64,000 nucleotides of DNA, taken from NCBI GenBank assembly GCA_029266615.1, contig JAQSWN010000001.1, positions 1-64,000 of the forward strand, written 5' to 3'. Positions 46,716-53,110 of this stretch are shown piece after piece (within the stretch, counting starts at the first letter, position 1; every line of letters begins with the position of its first letter). This stretch comes from Polyangiaceae bacterium. GTDB taxonomy: Bacteria > Myxococcota_A > Polyangia > Polyangiales > Polyangiaceae. A model generated the notes under the pieces. The model saw only the letters and a program-made list of their open reading frames with translations. It searched no databases and had not been told where the DNA came from. The translations under genes were made by a program, and so were the position numbers.

Positions 46716-47471
46716 TCAGAACAGCAGCTCGAGCGAGTTCTTGAATTCTAGGTCGAAGCGCTCGATGTCCGCGGGGAGCACGCTCGAGTAGCGGACGGTC
46801 GCATCCAGCCGACTGTGGAGGCGCTTGGTGATCGTGAAGTCCGCGCTGCTCACGCTCAATACGTCTACGTCTCGGAAGCGAGTCAGGCGCGGCTGAAAGT
46901 AGGTGACGTTGGTGAGAACGATGCGCTCCTGAGCCTTCAGGGTCACGGCGAGGTAGTTACTGACTCGATGGGCGGTGCCGTCGCCGCTGGGCTCGTCCGT
47001 CGAGAAATCTTCGTGCTCGTACATGTACGAGATGCCGTAGAAGAGCTCCACCGTATCCGCCTGCAACAGCGCGACGCGTGGACCGGTCCCGGCCAGCTCT
47101 CGGAGCGCGACGCGCCGAAAGCGGTCGCTCTCGATCTGGCCGTAAACCTCCCACCACAGCATGTCCGAAATCTCGTAGTTGTGGCGGCCGTGGGCGAACC
47201 ATTTGGCGACGCTGACCGCACGGTTGAGGCGCGCGTAGTCGCCGCGGAGCGTGGTGTACACGATGTTTCGCTGCCCGCGCGCGCCGAAGAAGCCGGCGCT
47301 GCCCAAAATCACGCCCTCCGTGTTGCCCGCGTAGGCCGACACGGAGGCTTGAACGCGCCCGCCCCAGCCGTCCTGCTTGAGCTGTTGGCGAAGCGGCTCC
47401 ACGTTGACCTGCGCCCGCGCCGCGACGGACCAGAGCATCATTCCTAGAGCGACGCGCGCAGCCCTAGCCAT
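46716..47471 (-). CDS. DUF481-like outer membrane protein
   Basis: Signal peptide; WGGRVQASVSAYAGNTEGVILGSAGFFGARGQRNIVYTTLRGDY...; C-terminal F. Confidence 0.75.
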   Translation of the reverse strand: MARAARVALGMMLWSVAARAQVNVEPLRQQLKQDGWGGRVQASVSAYAGNTEGVILGSAGFFGARGQRNIVYTTLRGDYARLNRAVSVAKWFAHGRHNYEISDMLWWEVYGQIESDRFRRVALRELAGTGPRVALLQADTVELFYGISYMYEHEDFSTDEPSGDGTAHRVSNYLAVTLKAQERIVLTNVTYFQPRLTRFRDVDVLSVSSADFTITKRLHSRLDATVRYSSVLPADIERFDLEFKNSLELLF

Positions 47472-48141
47472 GGCTCCGAGACGCGAGCGGCGAGTCTTCC
47501 AGCTGCTCCAGCAGCTGGGCCGGGTGATCGTAAATAGCGACGGCTCCCGCGAGATCCGCGTCACTTCGGCCGCCGCTGCGGAGGGCGATGGTGCGGATGC
47601 CGACCGCGGACGCCGCTTCCACGTCGTAGGGCGTGTCGCCGACCATGACGACCTCACTCGGCTCGTAGCCTAGCTTCTCCAGCGCCGCGCTGACGATGTC
47701 CGGATCAGGCTTCGAGCGCTCGGCGTCGCTCGATGAGCTTGCTTCCTCGATCAGATCTCGGACGTGCGCGAGGTCCAGAAAGCCAGCCAGCTCCTCGCCC
47801 TTGGCAGAGGTGGCGACGGCGAGGGCGAGGCCTCGGCTCTTCAAGCGCTGCAGTAGCTCGCGGGTCTGAGGGAATGGCCGGATGTCCGGCAAGTAGCGCT
47901 CCTTGAAAATCTCTGCGCGGCGCTTGGAGATGTGCTCTCCGCGCGGCTCGCTTTCCTCGACGCCCGCGAGCCGCGGGAGCAGCTTGTCCCCTCCCATGCC
48001 GATGAGGGGCCGCACGTCCGCGAAGCTCACGGAAACGCCTGCCTCCGCCAGCGCGTCCACCCACGAGCGCGCGTGGGCGTCGTTGCTGTTGATCAGCGTG
48101 CCATCGATATCCCAAATTATGCCGCGAAGGGGTCGAGTCAT
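47464..48141 (-). CDS. HAD-superfamily hydrolase (phosphoglycolate phosphatase-like)
   Basis: GIIWDIDGTLINSNDAH; LAVATSAKGEEL; EVVMVGDTPYDVEAA. Confidence 0.93.
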   Translation of the reverse strand: MTRPLRGIIWDIDGTLINSNDAHARSWVDALAEAGVSVSFADVRPLIGMGGDKLLPRLAGVEESEPRGEHISKRRAEIFKERYLPDIRPFPQTRELLQRLKSRGLALAVATSAKGEELAGFLDLAHVRDLIEEASSSSDAERSKPDPDIVSAALEKLGYEPSEVVMVGDTPYDVEAASAVGIRTIALRSGGRSDADLAGAVAIYDHPAQLLEQLEDSPLASRSHG

Positions 48142-49844
48142 GTCGGGCTCCGTTTCAGCTCGGGGAAGGGACGAACGCGAGAGACGAAATCCTCCGCGTC
48201 CAACGTGTTGAGGACCTGGCCGCGCCGCAGCCCCCCGCGGCGCGCCATCGTCACCCCGTAGCGCAAGACGTCGAAGCCGTGCACGGAGTGCGCGTCCACC
48301 GACACCACGAACGGAATGCCGCGAGCGGTCGCGTCCGGGATCCAGCGCGGGGGCAAATCCAGACGATGCGGGTCAGCGTTGAGCTCGATCGCGCCGCGGC
48401 TTTCCGAGAGCGCGTCCAAGACGACGCTCACGTCGCAGTCGATGGGGTCGCGGTGGTTCAGAATGCGGCCCAGGCCATGCCCCCATATCTTGAACAACGG
48501 TAGAGACAGCGCCCGCCGCAGCCGCTCGGTCATCTCGTCTCGCGTCAGCCGGTGCCGCGCATGAATGCTGGCGATCACGACGTCCAGCTGCTCCAGCACC
48601 GAGTCTGGATAGTCCAAGCTGCCGTCTCGCAAAATATCCGACTCGGTGCCACGCAAGATGCGGATCGGGACGAGCTCCTGGGCCGCTGCAATCTCGTCCC
48701 ACTGGCGGTGGAGCGCGTCGAGCGAGGCGCCGCGCGCGTAGTGGGCGCTCGGCGAATGGTCGGTGATGGTGATGTACCGCATGCCGAGCGCGTGCGCCGC
48801 CTGCGCCATTTCCAGCACGCTGTGCTTGCCGTCGGAGAACGTGGTGTGGCAGTGCACGAGTCCCTGGATGCTGGCGGCGTCCAAAAGCTCGTTCACGCCC
48901 GCCTCCGCGATGGTCTCCAGCGACACGATGCCGCTACGCAGCTCCGGCGGGACGAACGGTAGCTCTGCGGCCGCGTACAGCTCCGGCTCCGTCGCGAAGG
49001 AACGCTCCGAGAGCAGGACGCCTCGCGCTCGAGCGCGTTCGCTGACGGCCGCGACGTGAGCGCGGTCGCCCGTCGCCTCGAACAGCGTATTTCCCCAACG
49101 CTCCGGCGTGGTGGCGTGCACCCTCGCCGTTCGGCGCTGCGCCAAGTACACGAGCTGCTCAACGGGGTCGAGCCGTAACACCTGCCTCTCCGCGCGCAGC
49201 GGCTCTAGCGCTTCCGCGACGCTACCGGCGACGACCAGGTCGAGCTCCAGCAGCGTCTCTTCTCCCCGACGCACGGCACCCGCGGTGGAAGCACCTAGAC
49301 CTGCGCGCCCGAGTGTGGCGAGGAGCTGCTCCGAAAGCTCTAGCGCCTGAGACAGCAGCAGCGGCGAGGGCGGCTGGGAGCGGCTGCGCTGAAGCCATCG
49401 CTCCACGGCTTGCAGGAGCTGCTCCTCGGTTTTGGCTCCGAAGCCGCGAACGTCGCGCACGCGTCCCTCACGGCATGCCGCCAAGAGCTCGTCCACCGTG
49501 CTCACCCCGAGTGAGCTGCTGAGCGCTTGAATACGCCGTGGCGTGAGGCCCGGCACTCTCACCAGCTCTGCCGCGCCGGGCGGCACCGCGCTTCGTAGCC
49601 GCTCGAGCAGGCGTGAGGTGCCGGTGTTGTAAAGCTCCTGTATTTGCGCCGAGATGCCGCTGCCGATTCCGGGCAGCTCGCGGAGCCGGTCCTGCTCCAC
49701 GACCGTCGTGAGCTCGGAGCCGAGCGTCGCGACCGTCTCGGCGGCGCGCTCGTACGCCAGGATCTTGAACTTGGGCTCTTTCAGGTATGAAAGCAGCGCG
49801 CTCAGCTCCGACAGCGCCTCGTGAACCTGCGTCGAATCCTGCAT
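48138..49844 (-). CDS. polX: PolX-family protein: HhH + degenerate Pol-beta-like palm + PHP domain
   Basis: FKILAYERAAETV; LPGIGSGISAQIQEL; AGAVRRGEETLLELDLVV; VHCHTTFSDGKHSVLEMAQAAHALG; ITDHSPSA; ASIHAR; IWGHGLGR; IELNADPHRLDLPP; VSVDAHS. Confidence 0.9.
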   Translation of the reverse strand: MQDSTQVHEALSELSALLSYLKEPKFKILAYERAAETVATLGSELTTVVEQDRLRELPGIGSGISAQIQELYNTGTSRLLERLRSAVPPGAAELVRVPGLTPRRIQALSSSLGVSTVDELLAACREGRVRDVRGFGAKTEEQLLQAVERWLQRSRSQPPSPLLLSQALELSEQLLATLGRAGLGASTAGAVRRGEETLLELDLVVAGSVAEALEPLRAERQVLRLDPVEQLVYLAQRRTARVHATTPERWGNTLFEATGDRAHVAAVSERARARGVLLSERSFATEPELYAAAELPFVPPELRSGIVSLETIAEAGVNELLDAASIQGLVHCHTTFSDGKHSVLEMAQAAHALGMRYITITDHSPSAHYARGASLDALHRQWDEIAAAQELVPIRILRGTESDILRDGSLDYPDSVLEQLDVVIASIHARHRLTRDEMTERLRRALSLPLFKIWGHGLGRILNHRDPIDCDVSVVLDALSESRGAIELNADPHRLDLPPRWIPDATARGIPFVVSVDAHSVHGFDVLRYGVTMARRGGLRRGQVLNTLDAEDFVSRVRPFPELKRSPT

Positions 49845-49847
49845 GGC

Positions 49848-52364
49848 TCAGCCCAGGGCCGCCGCCAAGTAGCTCGAGGTGGCGCTGGCTTTGGATTTCG
49901 CGATCAGCTCGGGGGGCCCGGCCGCTACCACCCGCCCGCCCTCGTCCCCCGCGCCCGGTCCGAGGTCGATGACCCAATCGCTGTGCGCGATCACTTGCAA
50001 ATCGTGCTCGACGACGATGACGGTGGCTCCGCCGTTCACCAAAAGGTCCAGGTGCTCCAAGAGACGCTCCACGTCCGAAGGGTGAAGACCGGTGGTCGGC
50101 TCGTCGAGCACGTAGAGCGTGCCCGCGCGTTGTGAGCGCTGCAGCTCGGTGGCGAGCTTGATGCGCTGGGCCTCGCCGCCCGAGAGCTCCGTCGCCGGTT
50201 GGCCGAGGCGCAAGTAGCCGAGCCCGACTTGCAGCAGCACATCCAAGGAGCGGCAAACGCCGGGTTCGCCATCGAAGAACTCGCGCGCGGCGTGGACGGA
50301 CATGCCCAGAACCTCTGCCACGTTCTTGCCCCGGTACTTCACCTCGAGCGTCTTTTCGTTGAACCGGCCCCCCTTACAGGTCGGGCAAGGTGAATAGACG
50401 GAGGGTAAGAACAACAGCTCCACCATGACGAAGCCTTCGCCCTCGCAGGTTTCGCAGCGACCTTTGGCGACGTTGAACGAGAAGCGCCCCGCGTCGTAGC
50501 GCCGCTTCTTGGAAAGCGGTGTCTCGGCGAAAGCGCGGCGGACGTCGTCGAACAGGCCCGTGTACGTGGCGAGGTTGGAGCGAGGGGTGCGGCCGATCGG
50601 CCTTTGGTCCACCAGCACCAAGCGCTTCAGCCCCGCCGCGCCGTGGAGCGTCGCCCCTTCCAGACCTCCCGACGGAGCGGACTCCAGGTCATGCACGTCG
50701 AAGGTGGGCGCGGACTCGGCAGAGCCCAGCTCGCGCGACGCGAGCTCCACCAACGCCTGGCTCACCAGCGTCGATTTTCCGGAACCAGACACGCCCGTCA
50801 CGCTCGTGAGCACGCCGAGAGGGAACGCGACCGAGAGGGAACGCAGGTTGTTGCGCGACACGTCACGCAGCTCGAAAAATCCGTGTGCCTTGCGGCGTTC
50901 ACGAGAAGAGCCCCGCGCTTTAGCGAACAAGTAGGGGCCGGTCTTGGACTCGGCGACTTGAGCCAAGCCGCGGGGCGGTCCGCTGTACAGCACGCGCCCG
51001 CCTTGCTCACCGGCGCCGGGGCCCACGTCGACGATCCAATCCGCGCGACGAATCACCTCCAGCTCGTGCTCGACCACGAACAGTGAGTTACCCGACGCCT
51101 TCAGCCCGTCCAAAGCCCGTAAGAGCGCTTGGGTGTCGGCGGGGTGAAGCCCTGCGGACGGTTCGTCCAACACGTACACCACGCCGAACAAGCTGCTGCA
51201 CACCTGCGTCCCGAGCCGCAGCCGCTGCAGCTCCCCCGGCGACAAGGTCGGGGTGCTCCGCTCCAAGCTCAAGTAGCCGAGCCCCAGCTCGAGCAGGACG
51301 CGCACCCGCCTGGCCAAGTCCTCCGAGATACGCTGCACCACCTGCGCTCGCTCCGCAGGCTCGGTCGCGGCGGGCGCGCGCGTCCTTTCGAAGAGCGGAA
51401 AAAGCTCCTTGAGTGGCAGCCGGTGTATCTCCGAGATATCCCGGCCCGCGAATGTCACGGAAAGGGCCTCGGGCCGCAGGCGCTTGCCGTGGCACGCCGG
51501 GCAATCCGTGCCGACGAGGAATTTGGCGGCTCGCGCCTTCATTTGAGCGCTCTCGCTGCTGCCGAAGCTGGTCAGCACGTGCTTTCGAGCACTGGTGAAC
51601 GTGCCCTGATAGCTGGGTTCTTCGCGCCGCTTGAGGGCTCGCTTCACCTCCGCCAGAGTGAAGCCAGCGTAGACTGGCACGACCGGTTGCTCGTCCGTAT
51701 AGAGGATGAAGTCGCGCGTCTTTTTGGGTAGCTCACGCCACGGCACGTCCACGTCGTGCCCCAGTGTGGTCAGGATGTCGCGCAGGTTTTGCCCCTGCCA
51801 AGCCGTCGGCCAGGCCGCGACGGCTCGTTGCCGGATGGTGAGTGCCGGGTCGGGCACCATCAAGCGCTCCGTCACGTCGTAAGTTCGCCCCAAGCCGCTG
51901 CACTGCGGACATGCGCCCTCGGGCGTGTTCGGAGAGAAGGACTCGGCGTACAGCAGAGGCTGACCGCGAGGGTAGTCCCCTGCTCGCGAGTAGAGCATAC
52001 GCAGCAAGTTGGAGAGCGTGGTGACGCTTCCGACGGAAGACCGAGTGGTCACGCCCCCCCGTTGCTGCGCCAGCGCGATCGCGGGAGGCAGGCCGGTGAT
52101 CTCCCCGACCTCCGGCACGCTCATCTGGTGAAAAAGGCGGCGAGCGTCGGGCGAAACCGACTCCAAGTAGCGACGCTGAGCCTCCGCGTACAGCGTACCG
52201 AACGCGAGGCTGGACTTGCCGGAGCCGGATACCCCCGTAAAGACCACTAGCGCCTGGCGCGGCAGGTCGACGTCGACGTTCTTGAGGTTGTGCTCGCGCG
52301 CACCGCGGACCCGCACCAGCTCGTGCAACTCGGAAGCGCGTGGCGCGACGGGACCATCAGCCAC
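49848..52364 (-). CDS. uvrA2: UvrA-like ABC excinuclease subunit, short UvrA2/class-III type
   Basis: Two NBDs ([39 protein letters not shown]), CxxC zinc motifs [42 protein letters not shown] start at 52364 preferred because longer ORF overlaps PAP2 gene. Confidence 0.9.
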
Positions 52365-52477
52365 GGTCAGTATCGCTCGCGTTGGGAAGCTAAGGTCGGC
52401 GGCAAGACGGCCCGATACTAGCAGGCGTCGTGCCAAGCTCGGCCCGACGCGCGCTCGATCCTTGCACGGGTCAGTGC

Positions 52478-53110
52478 ATGCAAGATCGTCCGCTCGCTGC
52501 CAAGCTCCTCTTCGGTGCCGCCGCGTTGACCGCCCTCGCGTTCGGCGCGCTGACCGTCGCGGTGGGGCGAGGCAAGACCAAGCGCTGGGATAGCCGAGCC
52601 AAGCGCCTCTCCCATGAAGCGGTCGGCTCCGGCGAAGGAGCTCGAGCTGCGCGGTTCGCCGCCAACGCCGCCACACCGATCGGCAAATGGTGGGGCTACC
52701 TGCCCGCGTCGCTCGGCGTCTCGTTGCGGCTTCTGCGGGCGGGGCGGAGCACGGCCGCGTTGACGATCGCCGGCAGCGCGGTCGGCGCGGCCCTCTTGCC
52801 GCCCCTGCTGGACCGCTCGCTCGCGCATCGCTCACCGCCGCCGGAGCGGCGCGGCCCGAGGGTACAAAGCTATCCGAGCAGCCACGCGTTGCAGACGTCG
52901 GCGGTGGCGCTTACGACGGGCTACGTCCTCTGGCGCGAGAAGCTGGCGCCCTCGGGAGCTTTCGTCCCTCTGACGGCCGCTTCTGCGCTCGCCGGCCTGA
53001 GCCGATTCGTCCTGGACCGGCATTGGACGAGCGACTTGCTCGGGGGCTACCTCGCTGGCGTAGCCTTCGGAGCGGCGTGCGCGGGTGGGTACGAGCTGGC
53101 ACGCGGGTAG
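52478..53110 (+). CDS. PAP2-family phosphatase
   Basis: RVQSYPSSHALQTSAVAL and LSRFVLDRHWTSDLLGG. Confidence 0.8.
   Translation: MQDRPLAAKLLFGAAALTALAFGALTVAVGRGKTKRWDSRAKRLSHEAVGSGEGARAARFAANAATPIGKWWGYLPASLGVSLRLLRAGRSTAALTIAGSAVGAALLPPLLDRSLAHRSPPPERRGPRVQSYPSSHALQTSAVALTTGYVLWREKLAPSGAFVPLTAASALAGLSRFVLDRHWTSDLLGGYLAGVAFGAACAGGYELARG

Follow-up and report, generated by a model that had tools for sequence, protein, structure and literature searches.

Introduction

In bacteria, the Pol-beta-like polymerase of DNA repair is PolX. A noncanonical class of PolX was described by Prostova 2022 (PMC9226535), in which the proteins of Deinococcus radiodurans (catalytic triad AEE) and Deinococcus gobiensis (ARE) show no polymerisation and are strong Mn2+-dependent 3'-5' exonucleases, an early claim of polymerase activity for the D. 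radiodurans enzyme not having been reproduced. In the same work, one triad mutation in Bacillus subtilis PolX, D203A, abolished polymerisation and spared the exonuclease, a rare Glu at the triad was accepted as canonical, and LigD was found next to noncanonical PolX within operons of Alphaproteobacteria; the paper also already notes single genomes holding both canonical and altered PolXs (PMC9226535). Its authors raised the question why many lineages keep the PolX nuclease but drop the polymerase and asked for more phyla, and the word Myxococc- is absent from its main text. Furthermore, PolX-like proteins of Actinobacteria, PolX-related PHP nucleases without polymerase function, are without the whole polymerase region (PMC12926913), and a basic path for DNA is described in B. 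subtilis PolX (PMC6616362). Here we describe a PolX with a degenerate polymerase site and an intact PHP nuclease site, together with its relatives in Myxococcota.

Results

The polX gene lies in the window, i.e., the whole stretch of 64,000 nucleotides that was analysed, and starts with ATG (Table 1). A preliminary description of this DNA had reported, at exactly the coordinates given here, a PolX with a likely inactive polymerase palm and an intact PHP site; the observation itself stands, and what was missing from it are the strand, which is minus, the conservation throughout a clade and the prior description of the class. The product, hereafter the query, aligns end to end with the PolXs of Thermus thermophilus (3au2, 1.7e-77) and D. 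radiodurans (2w9m, 8e-67) in phmmer, and a Pfam search of it gave no palm match and for the thumb a sub-threshold match only. An AlphaFold2 model based on a 51-sequence alignment reached a pLDDT of 94.2 and a pTM of 0.89, with T. thermophilus PolX 3auo/3au2 and D. radiodurans 2w9m as its closest solved folds in Foldseek; the comparison covered Foldseek scores and DSSP, and the large rmsd to these folds probably reflects a different domain arrangement. In the model the palm is predicted with a normal fold, with E200/D202 and R241 on palm strands. A search of the query genome for a second, canonical PolX found none at E<=0.01; with this MAG 98% complete and 7% contaminated, such a gene is probably rather than certainly absent.

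Table 1 Features of the polX locus and its flanking genes in the window
Feature	Positions	Strand	Remarks
uvrA2-type gene, 3 nt upstream of polX	49848..52835	minus	true start probably near 52325
polX-like ORF, 568 aa	48138..49844	minus	PolX; polymerase site degenerate, PHP nuclease site intact
N-terminal 8-kDa/HhH and thumb region, residues 1-156	49377..49844	minus	Pfam HHH_8 6e-13, HHH_5 1e-10
Palm, residues 164-256, fast-evolving	49077..49355	minus	dN 0.245 vs PHP 0.074 against L002
Degenerate palm motif AGAVRRGEETLLELDLVV, residues 188-205	49230..49283	minus	Ser to Ala190, Asp to Glu200, Asp202 retained
Third catalytic strand TARVHATTPERWG, residues 239-251	49092..49130	minus	Asp to Arg241, codon 49122-49124
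dNTP-binding fingers motif EATGDRAHV replacing YFTGSKAHN	49053..49079	minus	degenerate
PHP nuclease domain, residues 326-560	48165..48869	minus	Pfam PHP 2e-10, nine ligands and groove residues
PHP motif I GLVHCHTTFSDG	48828..48863	minus	H331 and H333
PHP motif IV SVDAHS	48285..48302	minus	D517 and H519
HAD-superfamily hydrolase	47464..48141	minus	start overlaps polX stop (ATGA)

The triad of the query reads E200/D202/R241 in a 161-sequence PolX alignment, compared with D198/D200/D243 in T. thermophilus. The exchanges of Ser to Ala and of the first Asp to Glu, as well as the lack of the third catalytic Asp, all noted in the preliminary description, were borne out (Table 1). The missing third Asp is no alignment artefact, because a profile HMM built from canonical PolXs only aligned this strand ungapped, at the highest posterior and with Arg in the position of the catalytic Asp; a realignment that restores the Asp triad is ruled out, the nearest Asp being some 15 residues further upstream, in a different element. 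Nor do chance or sequencing errors explain the altered triad, since the closest relative, with 81% identity and from another genome, carries SEK, the triads of the clade are non-canonical except in L054, L056 and L033, and the reading frame is open.

The dNTP pocket is degraded as well: GS is changed to GA, the YF steric gate to EA and TGSK to TGDR, and Val stands where canonical PolXs usually have Asn (Ser in T. thermophilus), which in T. thermophilus numbering amounts to S188A, Y258E, L259A, S262D, K263R and S266V and leaves the steric gate, GS, Lys and Asn of the fingers motif all altered. In addition, the fingers comprise 52 aa, compared with 61 in T. thermophilus and a canonical mean of 63, and the palm is slightly short (74 vs 79). 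The Asp-to-Glu exchange alone is indecisive, because a rare Glu counts as canonical; at the level of sequence, the Asp-to-Arg exchange and the fingers changes are the decisive differences. We consider it quite improbable that the query has kept polymerase activity in weak or altered form, with Glu200, Asp202 and another acidic residue binding metal and permitting slow transfer: two of the three triad positions are still acidic and may retain some metal binding, Glu is accepted at the triad and activity was once claimed for D. radiodurans PolX, but the third position is Arg, the steric gate, GS, Lys and Asn of the fingers are lost, the closest relative has SEK, the claim for D. radiodurans could not be reproduced, and in B. 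subtilis PolX one D-to-A exchange suffices to abolish polymerisation (PMC9226535).

At the PHP site, all nine ligands (HHHEHHEDH) are found in the query, namely H331, H333, H363, E401, H428, H456, E487, D517 and H519; each ligand listed in the preliminary description is there, and its list was incomplete in omitting E487. The conserved Arg and Asn residues of the groove, R460, R465, N489, R494 and R535/R536, matched by motif to the basic residues along the DNA path of the B. subtilis enzyme (PMC6616362), are intact as well, and His431 appears, from the motif matching, to be the equivalent of B. subtilis Phe440. With triad and dNTP pocket lost and the PHP site fully kept, the protein is therefore predicted to be a nuclease or phosphoesterase without nucleotidyl transfer, a function already proposed in the preliminary description and supported, by analogy, by the biochemistry of the class.

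In comparison with the described systems, the query resembles the noncanonical PolXs of D. radiodurans and D. gobiensis in domain order, triad substitutions, substituted dNTP-binding residues with a degraded pocket, and deletions in palm and fingers, the latter being shortened, and shares with the class of Prostova 2022 the fully conserved nine-residue PHP site; it is a further member of the PolX class published in 2022. With canonical PolX (T. thermophilus 3au2 and B. subtilis, 31-32% identity) it has fold, domain architecture and PHP site in common, whereas the Asp triad, GS(x)RR and the TGSKxxN pocket are gone. On the NCBI PolX equivalog model NF006375/PRK08609, for which a canonical PolX is expected to exceed the curated cut-off of 426 and to carry DDD, the query reaches 346.9 bits and carries EDR. 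Unlike the Actinobacteria PolX-like proteins, it retains a folded palm and fingers, as seen from the full-length match to 3au2 and the palm of the model.

Full-length PolXs of several types were collected by whole-genome searches within the window's class, and plasmids and phages yielded only distant PolXs with less than 60% identity, which served as references. The lineage of the query is conserved across Myxococcota, with 35 relatives in which the triads drift (e.g., SEK, EER, AEE, HAE, ENS, RDE, GDE and DHS), the PHP ligands are 100% intact and the basic groove is conserved to near 100%. Over these relatives the three triad positions are occupied by E/H/A/D/R, D/E/A/Q/H and E/R/S/K/A, respectively, and triads vary even among species of a single genus. 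In genus g20, the proteins L048, L045, L049, L051, L052 and L008, from six species, begin their triads with D, R, E, G, R and A, respectively; the catalytic site in this genus is drifting at present.

The two domains evolve at different rates: between the query and its nearest relative L002 the palm/PHP ratio of dN is 3.3 (Table 1), in other altered pairs it is approximately 1.7-6.6, and in canonical pairs mostly approximately 0-1.5, with one at 3.3. Against L034, identity amounts to 81% in the PHP domain and 38% in the palm. The dN/dS values against L002 are 0.07 for the PHP domain and 0.17 for the palm, and with the palm below 1 we conclude that a structural role of the palm is retained. That the gene is a decaying pseudogene, having lost the polymerase and with the nuclease to follow, is hardly credible, given that the rapid evolution of palm and fingers, which would fit such decay, is set against a frame open in all relatives, with no frameshifts and no PHP ligand losses seen, a PHP site 100% conserved in 35 proteins from many genera, the low dN/dS of both domains and a tight operon.

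A tree built with the active-site columns removed placed the fully canonical L054 (G118) at the base of the query's clade and the canonical L033 as its sister, and the altered PolXs of D. radiodurans, rhizobia and other myxobacteria outside the clade. The AU test rejected one shared loss behind every altered PolX, which would unite the query with the D. radiodurans and rhizobial proteins (p-AU 8e-5), as well as one altered clade with L056 admitted (p-AU 2.6e-4) and the joining of the query's clade to the D. radiodurans group (p-AU 2.5e-4). The query therefore belongs to a different lineage from the D. radiodurans and rhizobial noncanonical PolXs, one in which loss of the polymerase site was independent of that in the Deinococcus/rhizobial groups. 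With respect to the main noncanonical cluster (Deinococcus, Bacteroidota and rhizobia), with which the query does not share its altered state by descent in this tree, independence refers to the D. radiodurans and rhizobial members only, the tree set containing zero Bacteroidota sequences. More than one loss inside the query's clade is unneeded, as an arrangement with the altered rows together and L056 outside was tolerated (p=0.108). L054 is probably no palm-swapped chimera: its palm is roughly equally close to the clade relatives L008/L048 (0.52-0.53) and to canonical PolXs (0.57), with no sign of a swap. Elsewhere in the tree, L168 (G327) and L123 (G144), with the altered triads EVR and GRE, form long branches adjoining canonical PolXs and are probably further independent losses.

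All six sampled genomes of one related genus, g15 (G021 and G262-G266), carry two PolX genes each. One copy belongs to the query's clade and combines a dead palm with an intact PHP site (L007, L044, L046, L047, L050 and L055), and the other (L137-L141, plus that of G265 read from L235) has a perfect polymerase site with DDD, GSYRR and YFTGSKAHN and a destroyed PHP site, e.g., VGAVHRGRA. Over the same species pairs from five genomes, mean dN was mirrored between the copies, at 0.114 in the palm and 0.017 in the PHP domain of the dead-palm copy, and 0.047 and 0.126, respectively, in the dead-PHP copy. In the related genus g20 the PHP site of the partner PolX is intact or nearly so (HHHEHHEDH in L087, HHPERHEDH in L096), a state suggesting that the palm was the first to be lost. 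We did not find this state of reciprocal inactivation described in the available portions of the published work on noncanonical PolX. L142 of genome G107 likewise combines a DDD palm with a PHP site that is destroyed and reads RNSVDQECK; the genome also carries L100, a PolX with both sites intact.

Investigating the gene neighbourhood, we observed that the neighbours of altered PolX genes are, in G096, G098 and G101, a divergently oriented Ku gene and one for a fused phosphoesterase-polymerase; in G090, G091 and G093, where Ku is not in reach, phosphoesterase-polymerase genes; and in G001 and G236, LigD polymerase and ligase encoded separately. The loci of altered PolX next to genes of non-homologous end joining (NHEJ) are L201 (G098), L202 (G101) and L203 (G096); L200, L204 and L205; and L186 (G001) and L188 (G236). 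The PolX-LigD link itself is already known and is here extended. LigD phosphoesterase and polymerase modules, which have folds unrelated to PolX and are encoded by separate genes, are likely partners in end cleaning and filling. Ku is present in 35 of 37 clade genomes, compared with 152 of the 286 class genomes (Fisher p 7e-9, uncorrected for descent), in 48 of 60 genomes with canonical PolX and in 8 of 21 with the class's other altered PolXs. The query polX itself is not adjacent to Ku or LigD, and its genome has two separate Ku-LigD operons (L223 on G000:C341 and L224 on G000:C315).

The immediate neighbours of the query gene are of another kind. The uvrA2-type product, 825 aa counted from the likely start, has D. 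radiodurans UvrA2 (2vf7) as its best solved match, with 1210 bits over the full length and in agreement with Pfam, and the order uvrA2-polX-HAD is also found in G006. D. radiodurans, too, has UvrA2 and a noncanonical PolX. That the main work of the query lies outside NHEJ, as a helper of UvrA2-linked excision repair or in 3'-end cleaning during base excision repair, is a possible if rather unlikely reading: the 3-nt gap and ATGA overlap are kept in the window and G006, and the HAD protein may act as a phosphatase or nucleotidase, but this gene order is confined to the two genomes, with different neighbours elsewhere in the genus, and two separate clade subgroups have Ku/LigD genes next to PolX.

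Discussion

Overall, we consider it very likely that the query is a noncanonical PolX that adds no nucleotides, acts as a 3'-end nuclease through its PHP domain, uses palm and fingers as a platform and serves in repair, chiefly NHEJ. For the query itself we infer the enzymatic activity, the platform role and the role in NHEJ; by analogy with the class, binding of gapped or broken DNA and trimming or cleaning of 3' ends by the PHP domain are strongly supported as its probable action. In the mechanism we propose, the 8-kDa/thumb/palm body would bind gapped or broken DNA, the dead palm and fingers would most likely form a DNA-binding and spacing platform offering ends to the PHP site, and the PHP domain would act as a Mn2+-dependent 3'-5' exonuclease or 3'-end-cleaning phosphoesterase. 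In the cell, this would most likely contribute 3'-end cleaning to repair, above all to non-homologous end joining; there the primase-polymerase domain of LigD may do the filling-in and the PolX palm would be dispensable for that reason.

On balance, it is rather likely that the two-headed PolX has been dismantled in Myxococcota, by an ongoing, independent loss of the polymerase in a clade tied to NHEJ and by a reciprocal split in one genus. The available portions of the published findings are extended by the independent loss, by the occurrence of altered PolX near Ku and split LigD genes and, most notably, by the reciprocally inactivated pair of a related genus. The myxobacterial clade is an independent replicate of polymerase loss, with the still-canonical L054 for comparison, and adds PolX genes physically linked to those of Ku and a split LigD, as well as a natural separation-of-function pair in one genus. 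Together, the replicate loss, canonical sister, NHEJ linkage and reciprocal pair make the question why the nuclease is kept and the polymerase lost testable with purified proteins. If our reading is true, two PolX genes in one genus would share the jobs of one.
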